Shown: positions 22,922 through 64,000 of the stretch, in pieces
Layout: each line of letters opens with the position of its first letter
How positions within the stretch are numbered: position 1 is the stretch's first letter
From: Malus domestica
Lineage: Eukaryota > Streptophyta > Magnoliopsida > Rosales > Rosaceae
DNA length: 64,000 nt
Direction of reading: 5' to 3'
Assembly (NCBI RefSeq): GCF_042453785.1
Contig: NC_091667.1
Coordinates: 32,914,001 to 32,978,000 of the forward strand
Made by a program: the position numbers and the translations under genes
The notes under the pieces: generated by a model
Databases searched by the model: none
The model's input: only the letters and a program-made list of their open reading frames with translations
What the model was told of the DNA's origin: nothing

Positions 22922-25900
22922 TCACAATATGCGGTTGTGCTGTGCGTCGATCATTGAAGCTTTCTCCTGTAAAAGCGGAGGAAACAGGAAATAAGCCGAG
23001 ACTTGAACTGCGGATAGCTTTCAGAAGCAAATTACAGTTTTAAGTAACTGCTGAATGCAAATCCATCCTGCTGCACGGATATGCATTTTAAAAGAGAGGA
23101 GAGGAGCCGCGAGCAATGCCTACTGTACAGTTCAAACTTCATAGGTATAACGTGCTTGCAAGTACGCATGCATGTGCTTCAAAGAGGAGGAAAGAGAGAG
23201 ACCTCGTTATATGGAGTACCCTCGGAAGGAAACCAGTGCATAAGAACTCCTAGGTTCATTATGGCGGGAGTCAACTTAAACAAGAGAGGAGTTGTAACCT
23301 GTAACATCATTTACTAGGGTAAGTTTTTGACAGAGAGTGCACGAGAGAGAAAATTATTGGACTCGTTCTCCACAAAAGGTAACATCAAAATAAAATTACC
23401 AGGCTAAGCGCTGTTGTTCCGAGAAGAAGCAGGTACATTTTTCCCTGTGAGAAATAGTTTGAAAAGACAATGATAAGAAAATCAACATGAAATCGAGGAA
23501 AATATGTAGATTCTATTTTGTGAACCCAAATTGACTGCAAGATGTGATTTCCTTCATTCAGGAATCAGGACCCTAACAGCTGGGATTCAAAACTGAATCC
23601 AGGTGAAGAAATTTAGACTAACCATAAGAGAGCTAAGTTACCTCAACAAGTTTAAGATTTGAGGCCCGACTTAAGAGGACAAAAGCAAATTCTCCAATTT
23701 GAGCAAGTGAGACTCCAACCTATAAAAAATAATCGAGGTTAAATAACTACAAATTAGCTTATCTGCAACAAATAAGATACGATTCGAATCTTATAAATCC
23801 ACTTACCACAAATGACGTCCTAAAGCTATATCCAAAGGCCTTAGTAACAATAGTAGCAACAGCAGTCTTTACAACTATAACTAGAATTACAGATGCTAGC
23901 AGTATGTCGACGTGGCTCCACAAGAAATGTACATGTATGAGCATTCCAATACTTGAAAGGAAGAGAGCTGCAAATAGGTTACGAATTGGTTCCACCTGCA
24001 ATGTACAAAAATATCAAATACAAGCATTACACATGAATCATAGTGTGATGGCTACGCATTTTTTCCAAGCTACTAGGATTATCAAACACGTAGTTAAAGA
24101 AGCCCCAAAAGAATCCAACACCATTACTTCTTAAGCACAAGTGGGGGAAAACAAAAAGGAAGCAAATAAACATGACTGCAACAGATTACGTAATACGTAA
24201 CTAGTAGAAATCCAGAAGAGTACCTGGTCTAAAGTATGTTGTGCAAGGTCAGTGGTTGATATCATAACTCCAGCCACAAATGAACCCAACTCAAGGCTAA
24301 GGCCCAACTTATCACTGCACTGAAAAGGTTACAAGAGATTCACTAGAATTAAAATAGCATTGAGAATTACAAATATGTAGAAAGATCCCTGCATTAGAAC
24401 CGTGTTACTGTTATTGTGTAACCAGAAATTCTGGAAATTCAAGTTGCGCAACAACTCAGCAGCCAATACTCAGCCAACATTGGACCAATAAGCGACTATG
24501 GTAATTATAATGTGTAAAAAGTCGGAACAGCACTTAAAAGCATGCAGATTGAGCAGGAAAACTAAATTTGGAGTCCATTAGCATTTTGAATAGTATTAAC
24601 CCTTGATATGAGACAACAACAACAACAACAACAACAACAAAGCCTTTTCCCACTAAGTGGGGTCGGCTATATGAATCCTAGAACGCCATTGCGCTCGGTT
24701 TTGTGTCATGTCCTCCGTTAGATCCAAGTACTCTAAGTCTTTTCTTAGAGTCTCTTCCAAAGTTGTCCTAGGTCTTCCTCTACCCCTTCGGCCCTGAACC
24801 TCTGTCCCGTAGTCACATCTTCGAACCGGAGCGTCAGTCGGCCTTCTTTGCACATGTTCAAAATCACCGGAGCCGATTTTCTCTCATATTTCCTACAATT
24901 TCGGCTACTCCTACTTTACCTCGGATATCCTCATTCCCAATCTTATCCTTTCTCGTGTGCCCACACATCCCACGAAGCATCCTCATCTCCGCTACACCCA
25001 TTTTGTGTACGTGTTGATGCTTCACCACCCAACATTCTGTGTCATACAACATCGCTAGCCTTATTGCCGTCCTATAAAATTTTCCCTTGAGCTTCAGTGG
25101 CCTACGACGGTCACACAACACGCCGGATGCACTCTTTCCATCCAGCTCGTATTCTATGGTTGAGATCTCCATCTAATTCTCCGTTCTCTTGCAAGATAGA
25201 TCCTAGGTAGCGAAAACGATCGCTTTTTGTGATCTTCGCTAGATTGCTCCGGTCATTAGTGTGGATAAGTATATAAATGGATAGAGATAGGAAAGCAAAC
25301 ACAAGATGTACATGGTTCACCCAGATTGGCTACGTCCACGGAATAGAAGAGTTCTCATTAATTGTGAAGGGTTTACACAAGTACATAGGTTCAAGCTCTC
25401 ATTTAGTGAGTACAAGTGAATGATTTAGTACAAATGACATTAGGAAATATTGTGGGAGAATGATCTCGTAATCACGAAACTTCTAAGTATCGGAGTGTGG
25501 TGTCGTCTTGACTTGCCTTATCTGTCTCATAGGTAGATGTGGCATCTTCTCTGGAAGTACTCTTCCTCCATCCAGGGGTGGTATCTTTAACTGGTGGAGA
25601 TGCACAAGGTAATGTATCAATTTCACTTGAAGCTTACTTGTAGTTTCAGGCTTGGTCAAGCGCGATACAAACCATGTAGTAGGAGTCCCCCAAGTCGCCG
25701 AGCTAGGGGGTCTGCTGAAAGAGGTGACAGACAAGGTAAGCAATCAGAGCTCCGACTGATTGTTCACCTTCTCCCCATCTTGCAGCAGCATGAAGGATAA
25801 AGAGAAGAAAAATGAGAAGAGATGATATGAGATACTTTTGCTTTTGAAGAAGTAACTTTCCACAGGCTTATTCTTGAACTGGTTTTCTGGTTTCCTCCAG

Positions 25901-28900
25901 AGTATAAGGCCGACTGAAGAATTTGAGGGTCAAAACAAGTCCATCAAATCTAGAGTACGTTCCACCCTGCTGATATGGGATACTTTTGCTTTTGACAGAG
26001 TAATGAATGTATCGGTACGTGTGCTGTTACGCTTGTCTCCACATGCTTCCTTGTATCCTTCGCACTTGCCCTATCTGTTCCTCAAGCAGATGCGGAATCT
26101 TCCCTGGAAACATAAGATGTTGAAGATGAGTACTCGAGAGCAATGCCAGGTAAGTAATCAGGTAAGGGGTTCCAGGCAGTCAGTTCCTGGCTGGAAGCTT
26201 GATTCCAAGTGCTGACTGATTGCTCTCTTTCTCCTTGTCTTGCAGGTAAAAACAAGGCCAAAAGAAAAGACAGGGAAAAAGCATGATATGGGATACTCTT
26301 GCTTTTAACCCTGATGATATGAGATATTCTTGCTCTAGTATAGCTTGTTTGCAGAGGTATTATCGGGGGGAAAGAAAGCTGAATATTTCGAAAGGCTTCG
26401 TTGGGAGTGCCCTCTCAGATATGATGAAGGGTTGAGCATTTTTGCAGGTCTGCCTGTCCGTTGGGGATGGAGGTCGACATATATAGGAGTCTTCCTAACA
26501 ACAAGTAGTAATGCTATTCCTTTACCCTGCTTGGTCATAGCACGGTAGTGGGAGCTGCCAGTTTCACATGTTTTAACTCTGTCATAGCACTTTGAAAAAG
26601 TGGTCTGTGGTATCTGGCTCTCGAGATTCGGAGAACAATGACTTTTCGATTTTTGAGAAAGCAATCATGCTGGGGGTATGACTCTCGAGATTCGGAGAGC
26701 AGTGTCTCTTCGATTTTTGAGGAAGTAATCATGTTGGGAGTCTGGCTCTCGAGATTCGGAGGGCGGTGCCTCTTCGATTTTGGAGCAAGCAATCTTGTTG
26801 GGAGTGTTGTCTCGAATGTGAGTAAAGGTTGGACATGTTTGCTAGTCTACCTTGCCACGAAGCACAAAGGTTGACACACAGGGACTTTCCAATTATCCAG
26901 CAATGGTACTGTTCCTTTACCCTCTCTTCGATTTTGAGAAAGTAGTCATGTTGGGAGTCTGGCTCTCGAGATTCGGAGGACGGTGCCTCTTCGATTTTGG
27001 AGCAAGCAATCTTATTGGGAGGGTTTTCTCGAATGTGAGTAAAGGTTGGGCATGTTTGCTAGTCTACCTTGCCACGAAGCACAGAGGTTGACACACAGGG
27101 ACTTTCCAATTATCCAGCAGTGGTACTGTTCCTTTACAGTTGTGGGTAATAATATGGTAGCTAGACCTTCAAAATTTATGTGTCTAAACTTTTGTTAGTG
27201 CTGTTTCTTTGCTATTCTTTTACCTTTCTTGGTCAGAGCGATGTAGTGGGAGCTGCAAGCTTCACGTGCTCAACTTTGGCAGAGAACTTTGGCAAAGTTA
27301 TTTGTGGTACCCATGAGCTATTGTTGCGTGTGGGAAGTGGGTGATTGAACAGTAAGATTCATGTGCTTTCTACTTCACCAGAAGTCTTCGACAGAATGCC
27401 CATAATTTCTGCAAAGCTGAGTGTGCGTGTGACAGCACAAGGCTAGAAAAGTAGGTGCCTCTTCGATTTCTGAGATCGGCCCTCGTGGTCTCTGAGCAGC
27501 CCAGCTTTTGAGAAAGCGAGCGCCTCTTCGATTGATTCGGAGAACGATGCCTCATCGATTTTTGAGAAAGCAATCATGCTGGGGGTCTGGCTCTCGAGAT
27601 TCGGGGAGCAGTGTCTCTTCGATTTTTGAGAAAGTAATCATGTTGGGAGTCTGGCTCTCGAGATTCGGAGGGCGGTGCCTCTTCGATTTTGGAGCAAGCA
27701 ATCTTGTTGGGAGTGTTTTCTCGAATGTGAGTAAAGGTTGGGCATGTTTGCTAGTCTACCTTGCCACGAAGCACAGAGGTTGACACACAGGGACTTTCCA
27801 ATTATCCAGCAATGGTACTGTTCCTTTACCCCCTCTTCGATTTTTAAGAAAGTAGTCATGTTGGGAGTCTGGCTCTCGAGATTCGGAGGACGGTGCCTCT
27901 TCGATTTTGGAGCAAGCAATCTTATTGGGAGTGTTTTCTCGAATGTGAGTAAAGGTTGGGCATGTTTGCTAGTCTACCTTGCCACGAAGCACAGAGGTTG
28001 ACACACAGGGACTTTCCAATTATCCAGCAGTGGTACTGTTCCTTTACCCTTGTGGGTAATAATATGGTAGCTAGACCTTCAAAATTTATGGGTCTAAACT
28101 TTGTTAGTGCTGTTTCTTTGCTATTCTTTTACCCTTCTTGGTCAGAGCGATGTAGTGGGAGCTGCAAGCTTCACGTGCTCAACTTTGGCAGAGAACTTTG
28201 GCAAAGTTATCTGTGGTACCCATGAGCTATTGTTGCGTGTGGGAAGTGGGTGATTGAACAGTAAGATTCATGTGTTTTCTACTTCCCCAGAAGTCTTTGA
28301 CAGAATGCCCATAATTTCCGCAAAACTGAGTGTGCGTGTGACAGGTGCTGACAAGGCTGGAAAAGGCTGGAAAAGTAGGTGCCTCTTCGATTTCTGAGAT
28401 CGGCCCTCGTGGTCTCTGGGGAGCCCAGCTTTTGAGAAAGCGAGCGCATCTTCGTTTTTTGAGATCGGCCTTCGTAGTCTTTGAGCAGCCCAACTTTTGA
28501 GAAAGCAAACACCTCTTCGATTTCTGAGATCAACCCTCGTGATCTCTAAGCCGCCCAGCTTTTGAGAAAGCAAACGCCTCTTCGATTTCTGAGCAGGCGC
28601 CTCTTCGATTTCTGAAGCTTCGTCGAGTGCAGATTTTTATAGGGGCTGGCATTAAGTTCCAAAGCACACTTGAATCTCCACCAGTAGAAGCTTCATTCTT
28701 GCACTTCTAAGATCTTGATTTGTCCGACCTCTTCTCTCTTCAACACCTTTGAAAATGTCTGGCCCCTCCGACCGTCGTTTTGACTTGAACCTTGTTGAAG
28801 AGGCAGCCCCACCTTCTCCAGACAACATATGGCGCCCATCCTTCGTCTCCCCTACTGGTCCTCTTACCGTTGGGGATTCCGTGATGAAGAATGATATGTC

Positions 28901-31900
28901 CGCTGCGGTGGTGGCCAGGAACCTTCTCACTCCCAAAGATAACAGACTACTTTCCAAACGGTCTGATGAGTTAGCTGTTAAGGATTCGCTGGCTCTCAGT
29001 GTTCAGTGTGCAGGTTCTGTGTCTAATATGGCCCAACGCCTATTTGCTCGAACCCGCCAAGTTGAATCATTGGCGGCTGAAGTGATGAGTCTCAAACAGG
29101 AGATTAGAGGGCTCAAGCATGAGAATAAACAGTTGCACCGGCTCGCACATGACTATGCTACAAACATGAAGAGGAAGCTTGACCAGATGAAGGAAACTGA
29201 TGGTCAGGTTTTACTTGATCATCAGAGATTTGTGGGTTTGTTCCAAAGGCATTTATTGCCTTCGTCTTCTGGAGCTGTACCGCGTAATGAAGCTCCAAAT
29301 GATCAACCTCTGATGCCTCCTCCTTCTAGGGTTCTGTCCAGTACTGAGGCTCCAAATGATCCCCCTCCGGTGCCTTCTCTTTCTGGGGCTCTACCGACTG
29401 CTGAGACTTCTCCTAAGCAACCTTTGTGAAGGCTCCCTCTTGTGTGCTTATGTTGACTCATGTATATGTACATATTTGTAGCTTATCAGGGATATCAATA
29501 AATAAGCTTTCCTTCATTTCAACGTATTGTGTTAAATACACCAAAGCCTTCTTCGCTAAGTTCTTTGAATTTTCTTTTGTTAAAGCTTGTATGTTGAAGC
29601 TTTCTGAGTGGAGCATGTAGGTTAGGGTAGTGTTCCCTTAATTTCCCGAGTGAGGAAAACTTCTCGGTTGGAGACTTGGAAAATCCAAGTCACTGAGTGG
29701 GATCGGCTATATGAATCTTAGAACGCCATTGTGCTCGATCCTGTGTCATGTCCTTCGTTAGATCCAAGTACTCTAAGTCTTTTCTTAGAGTCTCTTCCAA
29801 AGTTTTCCTAGGTCTTCCTCTACCCCTTCGGCCCTGAACCTCTGTCCCATAGTCGCATCTTCTAATCGGAACGTCAGTAGGCCTTCTTTGCACATGTCCA
29901 AACCACCGTAACCGATTTTCTCTCATCTTTCCTTCAATTTCGGCTACTCCTACTTTATCCCGGATATCCTCATTCCTAATCTTATCCTTTCTCGTGTGCC
30001 CACACATCCAACGAAGCATCCTCATCTCCGCTACACCCATTTTGTGTACGTGTTGATGTTTCACCGCCCAACATTCTGTGCCATACAGCATCGCCGGCCT
30101 TATTGCCGTCCTATAAAATTTTCCCTTGAGCTTCAGTGGCATACGGCGGTCACACAACACGCCGGATGCACTCTTCCACTTCATCCATCCAGCTTGTATT
30201 CTATGGTTGAGATCTCCATCTAATTCTCCGTTCTTTTGCAAGATAGATCCTAGGTAACGAAAACGGTCGCTCTTTGGTATTTCTTGATCTCCGATCCTCA
30301 CCCCTAACTCGTTTTGGCCTCCATTTGCACTGAACTTGCACTCCATATATTCTGTCTTTGATCGGCTTAGGCGAAGACCTTTAGATTCCAACACTTCTCT
30401 CCAAAGGTTAAGCTTTGCATTTACCCCTTCCTGAGTTTCATCTATCAACACTATATCGTCTGCGAAAAGCATACACCAAGGAATATCATCTTGAATATGT
30501 CGTGTTAACTCATCCATTACCAACCCTTGATATGAGAAACTTGAAAAAAAATAATAAATATTTCCACTTACCCAAGCAGATAATAAGCAGAAAGCCACAA
30601 CAGCAAGCTGATAGAGCTCATTTGTCTGATCCACCATAAGAATTATAAATGAGCCAATGAAGTTATTAAAAGTCAAGACAGAAAGCTAACTATCTTACTC
30701 TACTAGACCAACAAAACTTACTTGAGAGGACAACTGCATCATCAGTTTCAGAAAGCGAGGAACAAATGACCAACAGAATACCGACACAGCACCAAGATAT
30801 AGTGACAGCACCAGCAACCTGAAGTAGCGACAAACTAGGATGTTGGACTACAAAATAACCACTTAAAAAAAATAAAAATAAAATAAAACGACCCTCATTT
30901 TTATTATGGCAGCAAAGCAAAAGAAATTTTCAGAACAGAAAGAATAAAAGGAAAAAAGAAATATGCCATACAAGCTGCAGAAGCAGACTTACAGCTTCCC
31001 TACTGATACCATTCCTTGGAAAAGGCCGCTATGACCACCCAAAACTGGGAGCAAAGCAAACAATAAACCAACAGCACAGTCCTGAAATAAGCCACATGAT
31101 GGGATGTATGGATATGCATCAGAGATTTAGAAACCAGGGTTATAACGTAAAAGGTCCATCAGTTATCAATAAACATACCATCTAAGTTTTCAGACTTCAA
31201 AACCTACCTGGAAAATGAGCGTTCCAATTGTTACTTGACCGTGAAGAGCACTATTACTATTCCTTTCTGCAAGAAATTTCACCACCTGGTAAAAGGAAAT
31301 GAGAGATGAATGAAGTGCAGTTGAGATTCAGAAACAAGCAACCAAGGAAGTAAAGTGGCATCATATTACTAAAGGTTAGAAAACCTACCACCGCTGTTGA
31401 GGACATTGAAAGGAAGGAACCGACAAAAATTCCCTCAGACAACTTTGCTCCACATAACTGAAAAATAAGAAAAGGGCAAGCTTGGTGTTCATTTTGACAT
31501 GTTAACGAGTTACTTGTAAGAAAATACAGTTAGCAAGATTAAACACCATACCACAGCAGTTATGGCACACAAGAGCATAAATGTCATTATTTGAAGAAGG
31601 CCTCCAAGAACAGCTACAGGGCCCACAGCTTTTAACTGCACCACCGACAAATTAAATGGCTTCCGTAAACAAAGGCAAGTTTCATCCTCTCCCTCCCTCA
31701 GGACATCAAACAGAAATCTTCATAATTTTACAGCATAACAGACTGTAAACTTAAACTTCCCAAGTCTAACATACCTTAGCCAAAGAAAACTCCAAACCTA
31801 GAGCAAAAAGAAGAAATACAACACCAAACTGTGCAACAGTTTCAACCTGTAATGAAAGAAAAAGGAATTTAACAAGATTACATATAGAAGAAAACTGATA

Positions 31901-42731: not shown

Positions 42732-43914
42732 AGCGCAATATAAACCGGCTCCTTTCAAGTAAGCTGTTGTGAGCAACAAATAATATCAAAAGGTTGCATT
42801 CACAATGGTTTCAACTGGTGGAGGTACTAAAAGCCAGTTGATCTGAGTGGAGGGGCAGGAGTATATTTTGGCAATGAAGAAAATATTCGGTAGATTGAGG
42901 GCCTCCATTGGCGCGTTACAACGACATCATTTTTTCTGCGTATAGCATATTCTGTCAACCCCATTCTCTATTTGATCGTTCAATTTTGTTCGGTTTTCCT
43001 TTTCTGTATTTTTTTATGCTCTTAATAGTGCAAGAACACTTTTTTGGAGTGTAAGAACATTATTTTATCGTTCAATTTTGTTCAGTTTTGTTTTTCTTTT
43101 CTTCTAATGTTATTTGTGCTGTACGTTTACTTTAGAGTGCTGATAACAATTTTCTTATTAACGCTAATATAATCGTGCGAGCATATATGCCATTATAAAA
43201 TTGTATTCTCTACATGTAATTGAAACCCTGTATTCGTATTCTATGATTTTGCATGCGCTGAAAGTAGAACTGTAGAACTACTACCAATCATCGGATGGTT
43301 GCCTTTTTAGAATGAATCTAAATACTAACTGTATAGGCTTAGGAGAGAGTTGATCAGTGAAGGGTATGTGGCCAACCACTGATGAAAATGGTACAATGTA
43401 ATATCGTAACAACTGAAGAAAATGAGATGTTTACATTTTACCTTGACATCAGATTAGAAGTCAAAAAATCATTAATCTCCTACTTTTCACCCACAATTCC
43501 GTTGGAAGTATAACACACATATGAGATGTTTACATTTTACCGGAAATACTTTCGATCCCCCTAACTCACTCTTCATGTGAATATGGAGATTGGTATATAT
43601 TTCTTTACAAAAAAAACTGTTAGGTAGGAAGTCTAGATTCAACATACTACTGTGACCCCTTCCTTGGCATTTTCTTGGGTCAAAAAATCAAAATTATGCA
43701 CATCCCTTTCGCACAGAAATTTCCTTGAAGAAGATGTGAAAAGACATCAAGCATAATTTCCTTTTTCCCTTTACCCTTTTGCATTGACTTATTGGCTTGG
43801 TATCGATCAGGCCATTTTCCGGTGATCCAGTTTGTAGATCAATTGAGTATTTCTGCTCTTACATTCCTCTTAATCTTAGCTGCTCGATCATCGCTGATCA
43901 GGTGCGATCGATTA
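42732..43914. other. RH7 3' flank and TNL1 upstream region
   Basis: The phrase TCGTTCAATTTTGTTC(G/A)GTTTT is duplicated near 42976 and 43068. The sequence GATGAAAATGGTACAAT near 43380 resembles part of RH7 exon 13 (GCCGATGGAAATGGTGCAGT), with TTGATCAGTGAAGGGTATGTGG just upstream like GTTGAGTCAGTGAAGGGTATGG, so a small helicase exon fragment lies near 43345-43420. Confidence 0.45.
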
Positions 43915-46900
43915 ATGGCTGCTTCTTCTTCTTCTTCTGACCATCGTTGGAAATACGATGTGTTCATCAATTTCAGAGGGGAAGACACTCGCAGGGGCTT
44001 CGTCAGCCATCTCTACAAAGCGCTGCGTCAGAAACCAATCAACACCTTCATTGATGCCGAAGACCTCGGAAAAGGGGACCGTCTTTCCGAGCTCCTGACA
44101 GCGATTCGAGAATCAAGGCTTTCGCTTGTAGTTTTCTCTAAAAACTATGCTTATTCCACGTGGTGCTTGAAAGAACTCGTGGAAATCTTGGAATGCCACC
44201 ATACCAAGAACCATATTGTGCTCCCCATTTTCTACGAAGTCGATCCATCCGATATTCGTAAACTCAAGAGAAGTTTCGAGGAAGCTTTTGCAAAGCATGA
44301 TAATGATTCTAGCGCCGAAATTGAAGAGGTTCGGAGCTGGAGATCCGCTCTTACAACGGCCACCAGTTTTTCCGGCTGGGATTCACGAAACTATGAGTAA
44401 GTTCTAATTTGTTTTAGTTTCCTATTAATTTTTGGGATATTTGTAATGTGTAGGAGTCATTTGATAAATATTTTGTTTTAAGTTTTTAATTTTAATTTTT
44501 TTAACTTGTGACCTGGACATAGTATGAAATACTCATACGAGTCTTATGCTACCGGTTGAAAAAAACTTTGAATAACTTATTTGATAACTACTTTAAATGA
44601 AATTAAAAACTGAAAACTAAAAGCCCAAAATTTGAAATTCTAAATACGAATTTTCAGAAAAAAAAATGAAATAATTATCAAAACGACCTATTAATTGTAT
44701 TTTGTGTTGGTATTATATGGTTTTCAAAATTTGACAGGAATGACATAAAGCTTATTGAGAAAATTGTAGAAGATGTTTATAAGAAATTGATCCACATCTC
44801 ATCAAGTTCAAGCAAAGATAATCCTTTGATTGAAATGGATTCTCATATGCATGAAATGCATTTATTATTACATCCTCCTGGAGTTGAAACAAATGATGTT
44901 CGGGTTATTGGAATATGGGGTATGGGTGGTTTAGGCAAAACAACCATCGCTAGAGCTGTTTATGATGAAATCGCTTGTCAATTTGAAGCTTCTTGCTTTC
45001 TTGAAAACGTCAAGGAGGGTTTCATTAAGCATGGCAAACTACATATGCAGACACAACTTCTATCGAGTCTCTCGAACAACAAGGTGGGGAGTTCCCACAT
45101 TTTGGATAAAGGTTTCCAGGTGATGTTAAATAGTCTAGCTCAGAGAAAGATCCTTATTGTTATTGATGATGTGGACAAATTAGAACAAATAGAAGCTTTA
45201 CTTGGAGAGCAACATTCTTCCTTTGGTGGTGGAAGTAGAATTATTATAACAACTAGAGATTTGCAATTACTAAGCGGAACTGATGCGATATATAAGCCCA
45301 AGATTTTCAGTGATCCCGGAGCTGTAGAACTGTTTAGGCGTTACGCCTTCAGAACAAACCAACCCACTAGAGATTACGATGTTCTCACGAGGCGTGCCGT
45401 AAACTATGCTCAAGGTCTACCTCTAGCACTCAAAGTCTTGGGAGCTTCTCTTTATAACAAAACTATACTTGAGTGGAAAGGTGTCTTAGAAAAATTAAAG
45501 GAAGTCCCGCAAAGAAGGATTAATGATGTGCTTAGAACAAGCTTCGATGAACTAGATCGTACAGAGAAGAACATCTTTCTAGATATTGCATGTTTTTTTA
45601 AAGGAATGAAAAAAGACTATGCAACCGAAATCCTGGACGGTTGTGGTTTCCATCCTCATGCTGGTATTGGAGTTCTAATCGATCGAGCTCTCATAACTGT
45701 CTCAGTGTATGGGAAACTGGGGATGCATGATTTACTAGAGGAAATGGGTCGGGAAATAGTTCGCCAAGAATCTATCGAAGAGCCTGGAAGACGAAGTAGG
45801 TTGTGGAGTTATGAAGATGTTTATCGTGTGCTAACTCAAAATACGGTGAGAAATATTTTTCTTATGCAATTTTTAGTAGAAAGCTTCAACTTTTGATCAA
45901 AATCTATTTCTTAGGCCCGTTTGATCAGTTTTTAATTATTGAAAATTGAAAGTTGAAAATTGAAAATTGAAAGTTGAAAGTTGGATTTGTCGTTTGATAA
46001 CCATTTTTGTTTCCACTTCTTTATTTTTAGGTATAATTTTTTTTTTAATAATTGAAAATTGAAAAATTACCAAACAAGTTATGTGTTTTCAATTTTCAGA
46101 TTTCAAAAAAAAAAACATAAGCAAAACAAAAAGTTGAAAACTGAAAATGAAATGATTATCAAACAGCTCCTTAAGAAACAAGCATTAACTTCATAATCTA
46201 AACTAAGGTCCTTTGTTTTTTACTTCCTTTTGATTTGCATAGACTACAAAAGCAGTTGAAAGCATAATCCTGGATTTGTCGAACTCAGATGAGGCATGCG
46301 TAAATGCTGAAGCTTTTGTTAGTATGACTCAACTAAGACTTCTCAAAATTGTTGCTTACGGCAACAAACACCTAATTGGGAACTTAAGGTTTCTATCTCA
46401 TGAGTTGAGGTGTCTCTTATGGAATAGATTCCCCCTTAAGTCTTTGCCGTCCAACCGTCAATTCAAAAATCTTGTTGACCTTGATATGCAATATAGTCTC
46501 ATTGACCGACTTTGGGAAGGAACCCAGGTATGTACAATCATTTACATGTATATGTTTCTTTTAAATGTTTAGGTTCTAAGATGTCTCATTAAGTATGTTT
46601 TCTTGTATGTTTTGACAGACGCTGGAAAAGTTAAAATTCATCAATTTAAGTTCCTGTCAATACCTTAAGGAAACCCCTGACTTCACAAAGATGCCAAATC
46701 TTAAGAACCTAATTCTTCGAAGTTGTATAAGATTAGTTGAGGTTCACCCGTCTATTTCGACTCATGCAAACCTTGTTTTATTGAATCTGAGTGGGTGCAA
46801 GGAACTTAAGAGTCTTCCAAGCAGCATTCGTATGAAATCTCTCACAACCCTTGATCTTTGTGACTGCTCGAGTCTTGAGATGTTTCCAGAGATTCCAGAA

Positions 46901-47731
46901 GTGATTGAGGGGTTAGAAGAGCTTGATTTATCCGGATCAAAAATTAAAGAACTGCCCTCGTCAATTAATAATCTCACGGGGTTGAGTTATTTGATCCTAG
47001 AAGATTGCAAGGAACTTATAAATCTTCCAAGCATCATTCGTATGAAATGTCTCCAAGTCCTTGATCTTTTTGGCTGCTCGAGTCTTGAGATGTTTCCTGA
47101 GATTCCAGAAGTGATTGAGGGGTTAGAAAAGCTTGATTTATTCGGATCAAAAATTAAAGAACTGCCCTCGTCAATTAATAATCTCACATCTCTCAAAACC
47201 CTTGATCTTTCCGGCTGCTCGAATCTTGAGATGTTTCCAGAGATTCAAGAAGTGATTGAGCGGTTAGAAGAGCTTGATTTGTCCGGATCAAAAATTAAAG
47301 AACTGCCCTCGTCAATTAATAATCTCACGGGGTTATTTTATTTGGGGCTGCAAGATTGCAAGGAACTTATAAATCTTCCAAGCAGCATTTGTCAACTTAA
47401 ATCCCTATATCATCTCTATCTTTCTGGTTGCACAAAATTTGAGGTGTTTCCAAGCATTGTAGAAAATATGGAAGGATTAAGGGAGCTTCACTTGGATGGA
47501 ACATCTATCAAAGAGCTTTCCCCCTCAATTGAACGGCTTCAGAGTCTTGAATATTTAAATCTGAGAAACTGCAAAAGCCTTGTACATCTTCCTGACACTC
47601 TCTGTAATTTGGCACACCTTGACGCTCTCAATCTCTGTGGGTGCCCAAACCTTTCTCAATTACCTGTCAACCTTGAGGATTTGGGACGCTTGTGGGATAA
47701 TGCAGTAAAAAGGGATTTAGAACGCTTGTAG
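43915..47731 (+). CDS. TIR-NBS-LRR immune receptor (TNL1), intact frame
   Basis: Intracellular NLR receptor that detects pathogen effectors; the TIR domain is an NADase signalling module. Four exons: 43915-44396, 44738-45845, 46243-46527, 46619-47731, giving 995 residues. TIR near residues 13-150: KYDVFINFRGEDTRRGFVSH, SLVVFSKNYAYSTWCLKELV and FYEVDPSDIRK. NB-ARC: P-loop GMGGLGKTT near 221-229, ILIVIDDVDKLEQ, GSRIIITTRD, QGLPLALKVLG, FLDIACFFKGM and MHDLLEEMG near 489. LRRs fill exons 3-4, with three almost identical blocks (46874, 47084, 47225). The start ATG opens MAASSSSSDHRW; the upstream in-frame TTG was not used. The protein stops directly after the last LRR (LPVNLEDLGRL...), so the C-terminal jelly-roll (C-JID) of many TNLs is absent. 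It may therefore be a truncated allele, although no internal stop is present. Introns 1 and 2 each hold a MITE-like insert. Confidence 0.93.
44450..44700. mobile_element. MITE-like insert in TNL1 intron 1
   Basis: The left edge GGAGTCATTTGATAAATATT and the right edge, whose reverse complement starts AATAGGTCGTTTTGATAATT, form imperfect terminal inverted repeats around AT-rich sequence with AAAACTGAAAACTAAAAGCC. It resembles the intron 2 insert. Confidence 0.5.
45914..46172. mobile_element. MITE-like insert in TNL1 intron 2
   Basis: The left edge GGCCCGTTTGATCAGTTTTT and the right edge, whose reverse complement starts AGGAGCTGTTTGATAATCAT, form imperfect terminal inverted repeats. The centre is rich in TTGAAAATTGAAAGTTG repeats. 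Same general family as the intron 1 insert. Confidence 0.6.
46874..47329 (+). repeat. Recent internal LRR duplications in TNL1
   Basis: A block of about 105 bp starting CTTGAGATGTTTCC(A/T)GAGATT and ending CGTCAATTAATAATCTCAC occurs at 46874, 47084 and 47225 with only a few changes. Spacings of 210 and 141 bp are multiples of three (70 and 47 codons), so whole LRR units were added without breaking the frame. Confidence 0.9.
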
Positions 47732-56587: not shown

Positions 56588-57207
56588 CAGAAAGCCGCCA
56601 AAGAGCGAGGAGAAGAGCAAGAAGAAGTCGAAGAAGGCGAAGGTGGAGCCGGAGGAGGAGGAGGAGAAGCACAAAGAGGATCCTAATGCGGTGTCCAAGT
56701 ATCCGATTTCTGCTGTTGAGGGCCAAATTGAAGGAGAATGGGATCGAGTCCTTGTTTCCTATTCAGGCCATGACATTTGATACCATTTTGGATGGTTTGG
56801 ACTTGGTTGGTCGGGCTCGAACTGGACAGGTGAATTTAATTTACTCAACAAGCACAAATTTTTACTCTGAAACCCCAAATTGTTACCAAAAAGCACAAAG
56901 TTTTATCATTGTTTTGTGGTTTGTTGAATTGGATTGGAATATTTAGCTTATTGATGTGATTTTTGTTCAGTTTCTGAATTGTATGCTCATTCTTTTGCAA
57001 TATTTCAGGGTAAACTCTAGCTTTTGTGTTACTCGTTTTGGAGTCCTTAACAAATGGGCCTGCAAAAGCATTTAGAAAGACTGGTTATGGTAGGCTTCCA
57101 ACTGTTATCGTGCTTTTACCCACCAGGTAATTTGCCGAACAGGTAATTTTAATTTACCCTGGAGTCTGGACCATATGCTTGCAATGGTTTGGCTTTTAGA
57201 GTATCCA
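56588..57207 (+). pseudogene. Truncated second RH7 helicase copy (RH7')
   Basis: Begins inside the Lys/Glu-rich part of RH7 exon 1 ([20 protein letters not shown]) and follows the intact gene through the exon 1 donor, intron 1, exon 2 and part of intron 2 with about 90% or better identity by eye. A frame change after AVSKYPIS, a lost A in exon 2 (GGTAAACTC against GGTAAAACTC) and a changed PTRELAKQ region break it. At 57207 it is cut by the LINE tail of composite element B, at the point matching GAGTATCCA in intron 2 of the intact gene. Confidence 0.93.
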
Positions 57208-57224
57208 ACAACAACAACAACAAA

Positions 57225-57819
57225 GCTTTTTCCCACTAAGTGGGGTCGGCTATATGAATCCTAGAACGCCATTGCGCTCGGTTTTGTGTCATGTCCTCCG
57301 TTAGATCCAAGTACTCTAAGTCTTTTCTTAGGGTCTCTTCCAAAGTTTTCCTAGGTCTTCCTCTACCCCTTCGGCCCTGAACCTCTGTCCCGTAGTCACA
57401 TCTTCGAACCAGAGCGTCAGTAGGCCTTCTTTGCACATGTCTAAACCACTGTAACCGATTTTCTCTTATCTTTCCTTCAATTTCGGCTACTCCTACTTTA
57501 CCCCATATATCCTCATTCCCAATCTTATCCTTTCTCGTGTGCCCACACATCCCACGAAGCATCCTCATCTCCGCTACACCCATTTTGTGTACGTGTTGAT
57601 GCTTCACCGCCTAACATTCTGTGCCATACAACATCGCTGGCCTTATTGCCGTCCTATAAAATTTTCCCTTGAGCTTCAGTGGCCTACGACGGTCACACAA
57701 CACGCCGGATGCACTCTTACACTTCATCCATCCAGCTTGTATTCTATGGTTGAGATCTCCATCTAATTCTCCGTTCTCTTGCAAGATAGATCCTAGGTAG
57801 CGAAAACGGTTGCTTTTTG
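57225..57819 (-). pseudogene. LINE 3' end fragment (element B)
   Basis: Encodes [59 protein letters not shown] and SRIHIADPT on the minus strand, with a frame break near 57608. Counterpart of 24614-25229. Confidence 0.88.
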
Positions 57820-60800
57820 TGATCTTCGCTAGATTGCTCCAGTCATTAGTGTGGATAAGTATATAAATGGATAGAGATAGGAAAACAAACACAAGATGTA
57901 CGTGGTTCACCCAGATTGGCTACGTCCACGGAATAGAAGAGTTCTCATTAATTGTGAAGGGTTTACACAAGTACATAGGTTCAAGCTCTCCTTTAGTGAG
58001 TACAAGTGAATGATTTAGTACAAATGACATTAGGAAATATTGTGGGAGAATGATCTCGTAATCATGAAACTTCTAAGTACCGGAGTGTGGTATCGTCTTG
58101 ACTTGCCTTATCTGTCTCATAGGTAGATGTGGCATCTTCTCTGGAAGTACTCTTCCTCCATCCAGGGGTGGTATCTTTAACTGGTGGAGATGCACAAGGT
58201 AATGTATCAATTTCACTTGAAGCTTACTTGTAGTTTCAGGCTTGGTCAAGCGCGATACAAACCATGTAGTAGGAGTCCCCCAAGTCGCCGAGCTAGGGGA
58301 TCTATTGAAAGAGGTGACAAACAAGGTAAACAATCAGAGCTCCAAGCAATCAGTCCCAGATCAGAACTTTGATTTCGAGTTCCGGCTGATTGTTCACATT
58401 CTCCCTATCTTGCAGGCAGCATGAAGGATAAAGAGAAGAAAAATGAGAAGATATGATATGGGATACTTTTGCTTTTGAAGAAGTAACTTTCCACATGCTT
58501 ATTCTTGAACTGAGCTGAAGGGTTTTCTGATTTCCTCCAGAGTATAAGGCCGACTGGAGAATTTGAGGGTCAAAACAAGTCCATCAAATCTAGAGTACGT
58601 TCGACCCTGCTGATATATGATACTTTTGCTTTTGACAGAGTAGTGGATGTATCGGCACGTGTGCTGTTACGCTTGTCTCCACATGCTTCATTGTATCCTT
58701 CTCACTTGCCCTATTTGTTCCTCAGGCAGATGCGGTATCTTCCCTGGAAGCATAAGATGTTGAAGATGAGTACTCAAGAGCAATGCCAGGTAAGTAATCA
58801 GGTAAGAGGTTCTTGGCTGGAAGCTTGATTCCAAGTGATGACTGATTGCTTTCTTTCTCCTTGTCTTGCAGGTAAGAACAAGGCCAAAGGAAAAGACAGG
58901 GAAAAAGCATGATATGAGATACTCTTGCTTTTAACCCTGATGATATGAGATATTCTTGCTCTAGTATAGCTTGTTTGCAGAAGTATTATCGGGAGGAAAG
59001 AAAGCTGAATATTTCAAAAGGCTTCGTTGGGAGTGCTCTCTCAGATATGAGGAAGGGTTGAGCATTTTTGCAGGTCTGCCTGTCCGTTGGGGATGGAGGT
59101 CGACATATATAGGAGTCTTCCTAACAATAAGTAGTAATACTATTCCTTTACCCTGCTTGGTCATAGCACGGTAATGGGAGCTGCCAGCTTCACATGTTTT
59201 AACTCTGTCAGAGTACTTTGAAAAAGTGGTCTGTAGTATCTGAAAAGCTGATGTTGTGTGTGAAGATTACAGACAAGCTTTATCTAAGGAGATCCGGCTC
59301 TTGAAGTTGGGAAAGTGGTGCCTCTTCGATTTTCGAACAAGCAATCCTGTCGAGGATCTGGCTCTTGAGATTCGAAGAACGATGCCTCCTCGATTTTTGA
59401 GAAAGCAATCCTGCTGGAGGTCTGACTCTCGAGATTCGGAGAGCGGTGTCTCTTCGATTTTTGAGAAAGTAATCATGTTGGGAGTCTGGCTCTCGAGATT
59501 CAGAGGGCGGTGCCTCTTCGATTTTGGAGCAAGCAATCTTGTTGGAAGTGTTTTCTCGAATGTGAGTAAAGGTTGGGCATGTTTGCTAGTCTACCTTGCC
59601 ACGAAGCACAGAGGTTGACACACAAGGACTTTCCAATTATCCAGTAGTGGTACTGTTCCTTTACCCTTGTGGGTAATAATATGGTAGCTAGACCTTCAAA
59701 ATTTATGTGTCTAAACTTTGTTAGTGCTGTTTCTTTGCAATTCTTTTACCCTTCTTGGTCAGAGCGATGTAGTGGGAGCTGCAAGCTTCACGTGTCTCAA
59801 CTTTGTCAGAGAACTTTGGCAAAGTTATATGTGGTACCCATGAGCTAATGTTGCGTGTGGGAAGTGGGTGATTGAACAGTAAGATTCATGTGCTTTCTAC
59901 TTCACCAGAAATCTTCGACAGAATGCCCCTAATTTCCGCAAAGCTGAGTGTGCGTGTGACAGGTGCTGACAAGGCTGGAAAAGTAGGTGCCTCTTCGATT
60001 TCTGAGATCGGCCCTATTGGTCTCTGAGCAGCCCAGCTTTTGAGAAAGCAAGCGCCTCTTCGATATCTGAGATCGGCCTTCGTGGTCTTTGAGCAGCCCA
60101 GCTTTTGAGAAAGCAAACGCCTCTTCGATTTCTGAGATCGACCCTCGTGGTCTCTGAGCAGCCCAGTTTTTTAGAAAGCAAACGCCTCTTCGATTTCTGA
60201 AGCTCCGTCGAGTGCAGATTTTTATAGGGGCTTGCATTAAGTTCCAAAGCACACTTGAATCTCCACCAGTAGAAGCTCCATTCTTGCACTTCTAAGATCT
60301 TGATTTGTCCGACCTCTTCTCTCTTCAACACCTTTGAAAATGTCTGGCCCCTCCGACCGTCGTTTTGACTTGAACCTTGTTGAAGAGGCAGCCCCACCTT
60401 CTCCAGACAACATATGGTGCCCATCCTTCGTCTCCCCTACTGGTCCTCTTACCGTTGGGGATTCCGTGATGAAGAATGATATGACCGCTGCGGTGGTGGC
60501 CAAGAACCTTCTCACTCCCAAAGATAACAGATTACTTTCCAAACGGTATGATGAGTTGGCTGTTAAGGATTCTCTGGCTCTCAGTGTTCAGTGTGCAGGT
60601 TCTGTGTCTAATATGGCCCAACGCCTATTTGCTCGAACCCGCCAAGTTGAATTATTGGCGGCTGAAGTGATGAGTCTCAAACAGGAGATTAGAGGGCTCA
60701 AGCATGAGAATAAACAGTTGCACCGGCTCACACATGACTATGCTACAAACATGAAGAGGAAGCTTGACAAGATGAAGGAATCTGATGGTCAGGTTTTACT

Positions 60801-61275
60801 TGATCATCAGAGATTTGTAGGTTTGTTCCAAAGGCATTTATTGCCTTCGTCTTCTGGGGCTGTACCGCGTAATGAAGCTCCAAATGATCAACCTCTGATG
60901 CCTCCTCCTTTTAAGGTTCTGTCCAGTACTGAGGCTCCGAATGATCCCCCTCCGGTGCCTTCTCTTTCTAGGGCTCTACCGACTGCTGAGACTTCTCCTA
61001 AGCAACCTTTGTGAAGGCTCCCTCTTGTTTGTTTATTTTGACTTATGTATATGTACATATTTGTAACTTATCGGGGATATCAATAAATAAGCTTTCCTTC
61101 ATTTCAACGTATTGTGTTAAATACACCAAACCCTTCTTCGCTAAGTTCTTTGAATTTTCTTTTGTTGAAGCTTGTATGTTGAAGCTTTGTGAGTGGAGCA
61201 TGTAGGTTGAGGTAGTGTTCCCTTAATTTCCCGAGTGAGGAAAACTTCTCGATTGGAGACTTGGAAAATCCAAGT
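57820..61275 (+). mobile_element. Unit X of element B
   Basis: Counterpart of 25230-29690 but about 1 kb shorter, because the 218-bp repeats occur once instead of four times. It has the 65-bp repeat array (59988-60200), the X ORF (60340-61014), the AATAAATAAG stretch and the junction hairpin (about 61258-61276). Confidence 0.65.
60340..61014 (+). CDS. Unit X protein, unknown coiled-coil protein, copy B
   Basis: 224 codons, same length as the copy at 28755-29429 and open throughout, starting MSGPSDRRFDLNLVEEAAPP. By eye it differs from copy A at roughly a dozen residues (for example NIWCPSF for NIWRPSF, LDKMKESDG for LDQMKETDG) and has no indels. The central LKQEIRGLKHENKQL coiled coil and the Pro-rich tail with EAPND repeats are kept. 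It has no motif I recognise. Transcription would run against the surrounding LINE. Confidence 0.6.
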   Translation: MSGPSDRRFDLNLVEEAAPPSPDNIWCPSFVSPTGPLTVGDSVMKNDMTAAVVAKNLLTPKDNRLLSKRYDELAVKDSLALSVQCAGSVSNMAQRLFARTRQVELLAAEVMSLKQEIRGLKHENKQLHRLTHDYATNMKRKLDKMKESDGQVLLDHQRFVGLFQRHLLPSSSGAVPRNEAPNDQPLMPPPFKVLSSTEAPNDPPPVPSLSRALPTAETSPKQPL

Positions 61276-62518
61276 CACTGAGTGGGATCGGCTATATGAA
61301 TCTTAGAACGCCATTGTGTTCGGTCCTGTGTCATGTCATCCGTTAGATCCAAGTACTCTAAGTCTTTTCTTAGAGTCTCTTCCAAAGTTTTCCTAGGTCT
61401 TCCTAGGTCTTCCTCTACCCCTTCGGCCCTGAACCTCTGTCTCATAGTCGCATCTTCTAATCGGAGCATCAGTAGGCCTTCTTTGCACATGTCCAAACCA
61501 CCGTAACCGATTTTCTCTCATCTTTCCTTCAATTTCGGCTACTCCTACTTTACCCCGGATATCCTCATTCCTAATCTTATCCTTTCTCGTGTGCCCACAC
61601 ATCCAACGAAGCATCCTCATCTCCGCTACACACATTTTATGTACGTGTTGATGCTTCATCGCCCAACATTCTGTGCCATACAGCATCGCCAGCCTTATTG
61701 CCATCCTATAAAATTTTCCCTTGAGCTTCAGTGGCATACGGCGGTCACACAACACGCCGGATGCACTCTTCCACTTCATCCATCCAGCTTGTATTTTATG
61801 GTTGAGATCTCCATCTAATTCTCCGTTCTTTTGCAAGATAGATCCTAGGTAACGAAAACGGTCGCTCTTTGGTATTTCTTGATCTCCGGATCCTCACCCC
61901 TAACTCGTTTTGGCCTCCATTTGCACTGAACTTGCACTCCATATATTCTGTCTTTGATCGGCTTAGGCGAAGACCTTTAGATTCCAACACTTCTCTCCAA
62001 AGGTTAAGCTTTGCATTTACCCCTTCCCAAGTTTCATCTATCAACACTATATCGTCTGCAAAAAGCATACACCAAGGAATATCATCTTGAATATGTCCTG
62101 TTAACTCATCCATTATCAACGCAAAAAGGTAAGGACTTAAGGATAAGCCTTGATGTAATCCTACAGTTACGGGAAAGTCTTCGATTTGTCCTTCATGAGT
62201 TCTTACGGCAGTCTTTGCTCCTTCATACATATCCTTTATAGCTTGGATATATGTTACTCGTACTCCTTTTTTCTCTAAAATCCTCCAAAGAATGTCTCTT
62301 GGGACCCTATCATACGCTTTTTCCAAATCTATAAAGACCATGTGTAAATCCTTTTTCCCATCTCTATATCTTTCCATCAATCTTCGTAAGAGATAGATTG
62401 CCTCCATGGTTGAGCGTCCTGGCATGAACCCAAATTGGTTGTCCGAAACTCGTGCTTCTTGCCTCAATCTATGCTCAATGACTCTCTCTCAGAGCTTCAT
62501 TGTATGACTCATTAGCTT
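61276..62518 (-). pseudogene. LINE reverse transcriptase and C-terminus (element B)
   Basis: RTE/L1-like reverse transcriptase on the minus strand: [38 protein letters not shown] (palm motif A), [18 protein letters not shown] (motif B) and [12 protein letters not shown] (motif C, FADD). A one-base insertion near 61888 (GATCTCCGGATCC against GATCTCCGATCC in A) shifts the frame after ELGVRI. A second frame break follows near 61396, where CCTAGGTCTT is duplicated. A TGA replaces a codon just upstream (K-L-stop-E-R-V near 62493). The element is therefore not functional as read. Confidence 0.92.
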
Positions 62519-63297
62519 AATACCCCTATAGTTCATGCAATTTTGTACGTCGCCCTTATTCTTGTAGATAGGCACCAAAGTGCTCGTTCGCCACTCATTT
62601 GGCATCTTTTTCGTTTTCAAAATCCTATTGAAAATGTCAGTGAGCCATGTTATACTTGTCTCTCCCAAAACTTTCCACACTTCGATTGGTATATCGTCTG
62701 GGCCTACTGCTTTTCTATGCTTCATCTTCTTCAAAGCTACAACCACTTCTTCCTTCCGGATTCGACGATAAAAAGAGTAGTTTCTACACTCTTCTGAGTT
62801 CCTCAACTCCCCTAAAGAAGCACTCCTTTCATGTCCTTCATTGAAAAGATTATGAAAATAACCTCTCCATCTATCTTTAACCGCGTTCTCTGTAGCAAGA
62901 ACCTTTCCATCCTCATCCTTGATGCACCTCACTTGGTTAAGGTCCATTGTCTTCTTTTCCCTTGCTCTAGCTAGTTTATAGATATCCAACTCTCCTTCTT
63001 TGGTATCTAGTCGCTTATACATATCGTCATAAGCCGCTAACTTAGCTTCTCTCACAGCTTTCTTCGCCTCTTGCTTCGCTTTTCTATACCTTTCACCATT
63101 TTCATCGGTCCTATCCTTGTATAAGGCTTTACAACATTCCTTCTTAGCCTTCACCTTTGTTTGTACCTCCTCATTCCACCACCAAGATTCCTTTTGGTGT
63201 GGGGCAAAGCCCTTGGACTGTCCAAATACCTCTTTTGCTACTTTTCGGATACAACTAGCCATGGAATCCCACATTTGGCTAGCTTCCCCCTCTCTAT
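62489..63297 (-). pseudogene. LINE linker and fingers region (element B)
   Basis: Continuous minus-strand frame between endonuclease and reverse transcriptase: ESWWWNEEVQTKVKAKKECC, YDDMYKRLDTKEGELDIYKL, RCIKDEDGKVLATENAVKDR and HRKAVGPDDIPIEVWKVLGE, the last being the usual start of the polymerase fingers, then VPIYKNKGDVQNCMNYRGIK. It ends at the TGA near 62493 and is separated from the endonuclease frame by another stop near 63297. Confidence 0.9.
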
Positions 63298-63298
63298 C

Positions 63299-64000
63299 TC
63301 ACACACACTGGGTGATTACTTTCTCTTTGAAAATGGCTTGTTTTTCTTCTTTTAGATTCCACCATCTAGTCCTTGGGCACTTCCAAGTCTTGTTCTTTTT
63401 TCTCACTCTTTTGATATGTACATCCATCACCAACAAGCGATGTTGATTAGCCACGCTCTCTCCTGGTATAACTTTGCAATCCTTACAAGTTATACAATCC
63501 TCTTTCCTCATTAGAAGAAAATCTATTTGTGTTTTTGACGACCCACTCTTGTAGGTGATCACATGTTCTTCTCTCTTCTTAAAGAAGGTGTTGGCTAAGA
63601 AGAGATCATATGCCATTGCAAAATCTAAGATAGCTTCCCCATCCTCGTTTCTCTCCCCAAAACCATGGCCACCATGAAAACCTCCATAGTTGCCTGTCTC
63701 CCTGCTCACGTGTCCATTTAAATCTCCTCCTATAAATAACTTCTCCGTCTGAGCAATTCCTTGCATCAAGTCTCCAAGGTCTTCCCAAAATTTCTCCTTC
63801 GAACTCGTATCCAACCCTACTTGAGGTGCGTACGCACTAATCACATTGATAAGTTCTTGTCCTATTACAATCTTGATTGCCATGATTCTATCTCCTACCC
63901 TCTTGACATCTACAACATCTTGTGTCAAGGTCTTGTCCACGATGATGCCAACACCGTTTCTCGTTCTATTTGTGCCCGAATACCAAAGTTTAAACCCTGA
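63299..64000 (-). pseudogene. LINE AP-type endonuclease (element B), partial
   Basis: Minus-strand frame with the apurinic endonuclease motifs: INVISAYAPQVGLD, LFIGGDLNGHVS (catalytic GD-x-N), TYKSGSSKTQIDFLLMR (the QIDF motif) and NQHRLLVMD (terminal H). Proteins of this kind are often labelled craniofacial development protein 2-like in plant annotations. The 5' part continues beyond the window. A stop after VITQCV ends the frame at 63299. Confidence 0.9.

Follow-up and report, generated by a model that had tools for sequence, protein, structure and literature searches.

A composite RTE-type LINE family with a Ty3/gypsy segment and an antisense open reading frame in the apple genome

Long interspersed nuclear elements (LINEs) of the RTE type are usually 3.2-3.5 kb long and carry a single gene. 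The RTE-clade LINEs named for plants in PMC9033089 include RTE-1_Mad of apple and RTE-1_Stu of potato, a (TTG)n 3' repeat is given for the RTE elements of flowering plants in Table 3 of PMC3747384, and truncated twister ribozymes at RTE 5' ends are mentioned as unpublished work in PMC7761336. In the Retand lineage, as described in PMC11963269, an antisense open reading frame (ORF) lies between pol and the 3' long terminal repeat (LTR), in a region of 2.9-6.6 kb with tandem repeats in about half of the cases, and TRP28 occurs in the antisense protein of 97% of the Retand clusters. Chimeric or composite LINEs, twister ends on RTE elements and antisense genes in gypsy elements are already known, each on its own. 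Here we describe a family of apple (Malus domestica) elements in which an RTE-type LINE is joined to the 3' region of a Ty3/gypsy element together with an antisense ORF. It was met in a stretch of 64,000 nucleotides (C7:32914001-32978000, hereafter the window), and the genome searched for it comprised 651 Mb in 19 contigs. In what follows, LINE2 is the tail-bearing LINE fragment, LINE1 is the right-hand LINE part, and unit X is the sequence between them.

One insertion unit and its copies in the genome

The first-pass annotation of the window had claimed that a LINE, unit X and a second LINE 3' end moved together as one insertion, and this claim held. Positions 24614-30521 are a single insertion, truncated at its 5' end and enclosed by a 16-bp target duplication (AACCCTTGATATGAGA); a match of this length appeared in 0 of 200 shuffles of both flanks. 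The LINE1 and LINE2 parts have the same, minus-strand sense, which is also the gypsy sense of unit X, and LINE2 (24641-25227) is 92% identical to LINE1 over 29691-30276. A second composite in the window, copy B, shows the layout and junctions of the first; it has its own 21-bp duplication, is an independent insertion, and measures 7.35 kb from tail to 5' end.

Copies were counted across the genome with 40-mers at no more than two mismatches, for each of which the reversed-pattern control gave zero. The tail was found at 3,894 places, junction A (LINE2/X) at 3,755, junction B (X/LINE1) at 2,207, a LINE1 pattern 600 bp beyond junction B at 2,620 and the LINE 5' end at 400. Strict comparison of these numbers is precluded by the unequal decay of the patterns, as the excess of LINE1 over junction B indicates. 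The drop in counts from the tail to the 5' end is the pattern of 5' truncation. A 40-mer at the left of X was found at 2,823 places, fewer than for junction A; a larger number of variable sites within this 40-mer may be the reason, and the deficit is neutral for the reading proposed here.

On contig C1, both junctions occurred together: for 38 of the 73 exact places of junction A, an exact junction B lies 3,393-4,440 bp away in the correct order and on the correct strand, and two junction pairs within 12 kb are in a wrong arrangement. The tandem repeats of X are the probable source of this variation in its length (junction spacing 3.39-4.44 kb). Starting from LINE1, an exact junction B lies within 900 bp of 38 of 57 exact places and an exact junction A or tail within 6.5 kb of 14 more, a pairing made by distances only, with strand unchecked in the script; when the remaining five were read, four proved to be LINE1 joined to X and one had no LINE there. 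All 18 exact 5' ends on C1 lie at composite distance from a junction B or from one of seven hand-picked junction-A or tail places. Of 40 scored hits to the interior of X alone, 30 were fetched, the window copy among them, and all 30 begin at the LINE2 tail. None of the 57 exact places of LINE1 on this contig proved to be a plain LINE1 with a tail of its own, in a search that older, more divergent LINEs would escape. Two C1 copies extend over 8.06 and 8.33 kb from tail to 5' end (positions paired by hand). Overall, the composites form a family of RTE-type LINEs about 8 kb in length and are no occasional chimera.

The copies also carry the marks of separate insertions by target-primed reverse transcription, the process that moved the unit. 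All 60 loci fetched around junction A or the interior of X begin at the same tail; they represent 59 distinct places (the window copy was fetched twice), and within the 40 bp beside the tail no 16-mer is common to any two of them. Nine copies were read at both ends, of which six have exact duplications (10, 12, 16, 16, 20 and 21 bp). The 5' ends are variable: full-length in copy B and L072, inside LINE1 in the window copy, L071, L007 and others, and inside X in L026, which has a duplication, and L029, which does not. In 20 consecutive C1 copies with junction B, the similarity to LINE1 runs for about 18, 303, 376, 426, 459 and 652 bp in six and spans the whole stretch read in the other 14. One locus, L004, is an internal-deletion derivative in which the LINE 5' end is kept and joined to mid-LINE1; it is a possible non-autonomous version of the composite.

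A different route, in which the composites spread through segmental duplication or by the gypsy machinery instead of as LINEs, is hardly credible. Two composites do lie about 10 kb apart on contig C4, but the flanks are distinct at 59 of 59 places, which already refutes this route, and the 10-21 bp duplications in six of nine copies, the (TTG)n tail and the graded 5' truncation all speak against it. A segmental duplication of only two loci is likewise ruled out by the thousands of junction places and their different flanks. Nor was X seen as an insertion with its own duplication inside an otherwise contiguous LINE: LINE1 and LINE2 have about 590 bp in common, over which their sequences diverge by about 8%.

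Origin of unit X and of its two joints

A 40-mer from the antisense ORF of X was found at 4,694 places, more than the tail; donors were therefore suspected, and the C1 places lacking a composite marker were read. Among 100 listed exact ORF places on C1, 57 are accompanied by junction B, 13 by LINE1, 20 by junction A or a tail, and 10 by none of these; the last ten comprise five LINE1-joined variants, two donors, two cases ending inside X and one without X there. In the two donors, L120 and L122, X continues at its right end into sequence without a LINE. To the right of X at the L120 locus (read as L129), the matches are RVT_3 (RNase H-like), Integrase_H2C2 and, below cut-off, rve, and these pol frames are on the strand opposite the 224-amino-acid ORF; to the left, an end starting TGTGACCTTCGC stands beside foreign sequence. 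The donor order at C1:8.89-8.90 Mb is thus LTR, ORF, integrase/RNase H, with the ORF antisense to pol. A 216-bp piece of the donor LTR is absent from the window composites; among 40 scored hits to it, seven same-strand pairs have a spacing of 11.7-12.3 kb and one has 15.3 kb (distances worked out by hand), and the pair C1:8887614/8899551 brackets the L120 donor.

Unit X is therefore of gypsy origin and not, as in the earlier view, an unrelated unit: it represents the 3' portion of a Ty3/gypsy element, with the LTR end directly against the older LINE fragment. From these sequences we read X as the region of a 12-kb element that extends from downstream of pol to the end of the 3' LTR, minus about 290 bp that are present in the donor and missing from the LTR-side end of X (25228-25645). 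The idea that X is an unrelated cellular gene region is ruled out by the donor locus leading into a gypsy integrase. No terminal inverted repeats at the ends of X were found among the seven inverted pairs listed, and an Rfam match to flavi_FSE within X (E-value 0.5) was far under the cut-off and is regarded as chance. On its left flank (L130, about C1:8,900.0-8,901.3 kb) the donor element lies in sequence that by eye resembles an old endogenous pararetrovirus, with a zinc knuckle and protease-like motifs.

At junction A, LINE2 ends ...TCGCTTTT and X starts with TGTGATC, the LTR end (window 25228); since this LTR end abuts LINE2, X most likely arrived by insertion into an older LINE. At junction B, the donor reads ...GTCACTAAGTGG followed by TCGTGAG, the LINE 3' end reads ...CCCACTAAGTGGGGTCGG and the composite reads ...GTCACTGAGTGGGATCGG, so that the joint is a 10-bp microhomology, CACTAAGTGG, at which the LINE tail and the last bases are lost. 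The LINE1 tail is missing at junction B of the window copy and copy B, and of L119, L123, L126, L001-L008 and L071-L073.

The first-pass annotation had attributed the composite to simple 3' transduction, in which a master LINE upstream of X and an older LINE fragment was transcribed through to the second tail. Part of this view stands: the composite is mobile as one unit, the order and shared sense of LINE1, X and LINE2 agree with it, and X very probably lay next to the older LINE fragment. However, 3' transduction is expected to retain the LINE tail between the LINE and the transduced DNA, whereas no (TTG)n precedes X and the tail and last bases of LINE1 are missing in the composites whose junction B was read. 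Moreover, the joint lies in the microhomology that the LINE end shares with gypsy sequence downstream of pol, and transduction would need LINE1 to have sat in the middle of a gypsy element and its tail to have been deleted afterwards. The absence of the LINE1 tail and the position of the joint thus disfavour simple 3' transduction, which we consider quite unlikely.

The two joints favour instead a sequence of gypsy insertion, read-through RNA and template switch, which fits them best. The first step would have been the insertion of a Ty3/gypsy element into an older LINE copy, both having the same sense, at a point about 590 bp away from the LINE 3' end. Its transcript may then have run through into the old LINE end and become a template for the RTE reverse transcriptase, which would have changed template at the 10-bp microhomology (in LINE sense, CCACTTAGTG) and gone on copying RNA from a complete LINE. 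The resulting insertion would consist of a whole LINE minus its tail, the gypsy segment and the old LINE end. Such a founder would have possessed all the needed parts, namely the 5' ribozyme, the endonuclease-reverse transcriptase (EN-RT) and the 3' recognition end, and could have reached about 3,800 copies through target-primed reverse transcription. The present form is ordered as 5' twister, EN-RT gene, 4.4-kb gypsy segment with the antisense 224-amino-acid gene, 0.6-kb LINE 3' end and (TTG)n.

The founder might also have formed at the DNA level, through microhomology-mediated repair or ectopic recombination of a LINE with a gypsy element lying in another LINE, and later have spread as a LINE. 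A microhomology joint is equally a signature of DNA repair, and the sequence cannot separate it from an RNA template switch. Repair would, however, need to strike the last bases of a LINE, and LINE-1 is known from PMC13174262 to give rise to chimeras through template switching or the ligation of RNAs; a DNA-level founder therefore appears improbable, if less so than simple 3' transduction.

Coding frames and the 5' ribozyme

Locus L070 has an uninterrupted LINE frame of 1,025 amino acids that matches Exo_endo_phos (E-value 4e-9) and RVT_1 (E-value 1.5e-36), with about 195 bp of the 5' end missing; in the truncated LINE1 of the window copy the RVT_1 match is slightly below cut-off. The EN-RT frame stops with a TGA at the junction with X. 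All three searched loci that hold the LINE 5' end (L072, L004 and L069, the last being copy B) have a match to the type-P1 twister ribozyme there, which adjoins the target duplication. This position is consistent with self-cleavage setting the 5' end of the RNA, and given the mention in PMC7761336 a 5' twister is taken as a trait common to RTE elements. Matches to U2 and mir-5880 in L070 and L073 were below cut-off.

The antisense ORF of X is open in 26 of the 29 composite copies read, among them 17 of 20 C1 copies. Variants of the ORF that occur in at least two of 28 copies are depleted of protein changes (16 of 35, expected 25.3, P 0.0005; for the C1 copies by themselves 14 of 30 against 21.6 expected, P 0.0025), and singleton variants are near neutrality (71 of 100 protein-changing, expected 73.2). 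The singletons arose mostly after insertion, and the shared variants came mostly from source copies. When the shared variants were scored in the five other frames, four were undepleted and one reverse frame gave P 0.02. In the reverse transcriptase (RT) frame, 11 of 23 shared variants are protein-changing (expected 15.6, P 0.03), as are 4 of the 14 found in at least three copies (expected 9.6, P 0.003). The dead RT end in LINE2, compared at 59 places, shows no sign of selection (18 of 23, expected 16.8). All these variant tests take variants as independent. With this proviso, selection probably acted on the antisense frame in the spreading lineages.

A single-sequence structure model of the 224-amino-acid protein consists of one long helix (residues 60-167), with a block-mean predicted local distance difference test (pLDDT) score of 89-98 over residues 81-160. 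Pfam matches of coiled-coil type (YabA and others) had E-values of 0.02 or worse, below the cut-offs, and TRP28 (PF04195) gave no match at E-values up to 1; we therefore claim only a Retand-like layout and no membership of that lineage. The LINE seems to have acquired, and since retained, an additional antisense gene with a predicted coiled-coil product. Because selection seems to have preserved the ORF in the spreading lineages, the protein may help the element; it would be made from X's own strand, where an AATAAA stands at 29497, with a possible role in replication or in escape from silencing. Tentatively, and with somewhat less than even confidence, the composite may be regarded as an ambisense LINE in which a captured gypsy coiled-coil protein, encoded on the opposite strand, aids replication or silencing escape and replaces the ORF1 that RTE elements lack.

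It is also conceivable, though we hold it to be rather doubtful, that X is an inert passenger whose ORF is open through the youth of the family or through exchange with selected gypsy donors. The ORF is intact in both donors read; compared with the composite majority, donor D1 has 20 silent and 16 changing differences, and the other donor 17 silent, 16 changing and one that singly would create a stop. Seven of the 35 shared variants are the donor base, and exchange with gypsy donors or ancestral polymorphism could contribute to the shared variants. In addition, the composite copies differ from the ORF majority at only 4-17 of 675 bases. An inert X does not readily account for the shortage of protein changes that shared variants, unlike the neutral singletons, show when read in the frame of the ORF, nor for the lack of such a shortage in LINE2 from 59 other places of the same family.

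Taken as a whole, the explanation that we consider probable is a composite LINE family with a gypsy-derived X, a template-switch founder and an antisense gene in use. Besides the repair signature and the donor features named above, several observations weigh against it. Three of the nine copies read at both ends (L040/L070, L052/L073 and L029) have no detectable duplication, and the 10-bp duplication of another was reached by 4 of 200 shuffles. The donor reading comes from two loci, one of them over a longer stretch, with no complete gypsy element, and none of the loci read showed the arrangement that the model calls for, a gypsy element within a LINE. Of the three long LINE1 copies read, two (copy B and L072) have an interrupted RT frame, the antisense ORF is broken in 3 of 29 copies, and the twister matches, which span the whole model, score below the Rfam gathering threshold of 67.2. 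The features on which this account is built are collected in Table 1.

Table 1. Positions of the composite features in the window and of the twister matches in fetched loci
Feature	Position	Strand	Remark
Target-site duplication, left copy	24598-24613	.	AACCCTTGATATGAGA, exact 16-bp match to 30522-30537
(CAA)n on the plus strand, in LINE sense the composite's (TTG)n 3' tail	24614-24640	-	
LINE2, RTE-type LINE 3' end of about 590 bp, composite 3' end	24641-25227	-	degenerate RT-frame end
Unit X, Ty3/gypsy part from the 3' LTR end (25228, TG...) to downstream of pol	25228-29690	-	donor loci L120, L122, L129-L132
LTR-side end of X, extent of the donor reading	25228-25645	-	87.6% and 92.1% identical to L130
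Tandem repeats in X, 64/65-bp and 217-bp units	26618-28615	.	
224-amino-acid antisense ORF in X	28755-29429	+	predicted long helix; gypsy-inherited
Junction B, within CACTAAGTGG (here CACTGAGTGG), the microhomology shared by LINE 3' end and gypsy donor	29691-29700	.	LINE tail absent
LINE1, C-terminal part of the EN-RT frame, 5'-truncated, 831 bp	29691-30521	-	
Target-site duplication, right copy	30522-30537	.	exact 16-bp match, AACCCTTGATATGAGA
Copy B, left target duplication	57187-57207	.	21-bp exact match
Copy B, composite	57208-64000, on to about 64558 (read in L069)	-	LINE1 reaches LINE 5' end
Twister-P1	L072:3402-3464	-	60.4 bits, E-value 3.8e-13
Twister-P1	L069:1497-1566	-	59.7 bits
Twister-P1	L004:95-158	+	47.2 bits

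Elsewhere in the window, positions 43729-47731 contain frames that by eye resemble a TIR-NBS-LRR resistance-type gene, with 210- and 141-bp tandem units. The host site of copy B (L069 from about 1559, window 64559 on) contains, again by eye, DEAD-box helicase-like exons.

The composite beside known retroelements

In this family a LINE acquired a long segment with an open gene from another class of retrotransposon and then reached thousands of copies, with both joints still traceable. Among the literature matches listed, no LINE joined to a gypsy 3' region with its gene in thousands of copies was found, Repbase and other plant genomes being outside the scope of that search. If the antisense gene is used, the roles of the widespread antisense proteins of Tat/Retand gypsy elements could be tested in a second, unrelated replication system, and their action must be one that helps both.

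There is also a warning for annotation. The LINE ends at 24641-25227 and 29691-30276 flank X much as LTRs of about 590 bp would, 92% alike, and with such paired ends around X the composite may be called an LTR element by LTR finders. A LINE clade is reported among the predicted LTR elements of apple in PMC11197308, which could be explained by a composite of this kind.

Like the RTE LINEs of plants, the composite has one frame with endonuclease and RT, a (TTG)n tail (60 of 60 loci; compare PMC3747384), target duplications and variable 5' truncation. Unlike them, it is about 8 kb long (7.35-8.33 kb in the copies measured) instead of short, and it has a second gene, the antisense ORF, in a gypsy segment placed between the RT gene and the 3' end. 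The Repbase entry RTE-1_Mad may already include part of the composite, unrecognised. With the region between pol and 3' LTR of Retand/Tat elements, as outlined in PMC11963269, X shares an antisense ORF (seen in the donor) and tandem repeats (seen in X itself); its antisense protein differs in having no TRP28 match, and the region resides inside a LINE.

The antisense position and the predicted coiled-coil product call to mind two parts of LINE-1, although no sequence relation is claimed. ORF0 of LINE-1 is an antisense gene, and ORF1p is a coiled-coil accessory protein. In contrast to both, the composite's gene has an LTR element as its source and is located on the downstream side of the RT gene. 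Another parallel is SVA, a non-autonomous composite mobilised by the LINE machinery. Like SVA, which is named in PMC13174262, the apple element is a mobile unit assembled from different retroelements, one of them LTR-derived, and is mobilised by a LINE; SVA is without a reverse transcriptase of its own, whereas the apple composite carries an EN-RT frame. Finally, the LINE-1 chimeras treated in PMC13174262 resemble the composite in that LINE RNA was joined to other RNA at insertion. Those chimeras, as far as that account covers them, are individual insertions with short additions, whereas the composite founded a family of thousands with a second gene.

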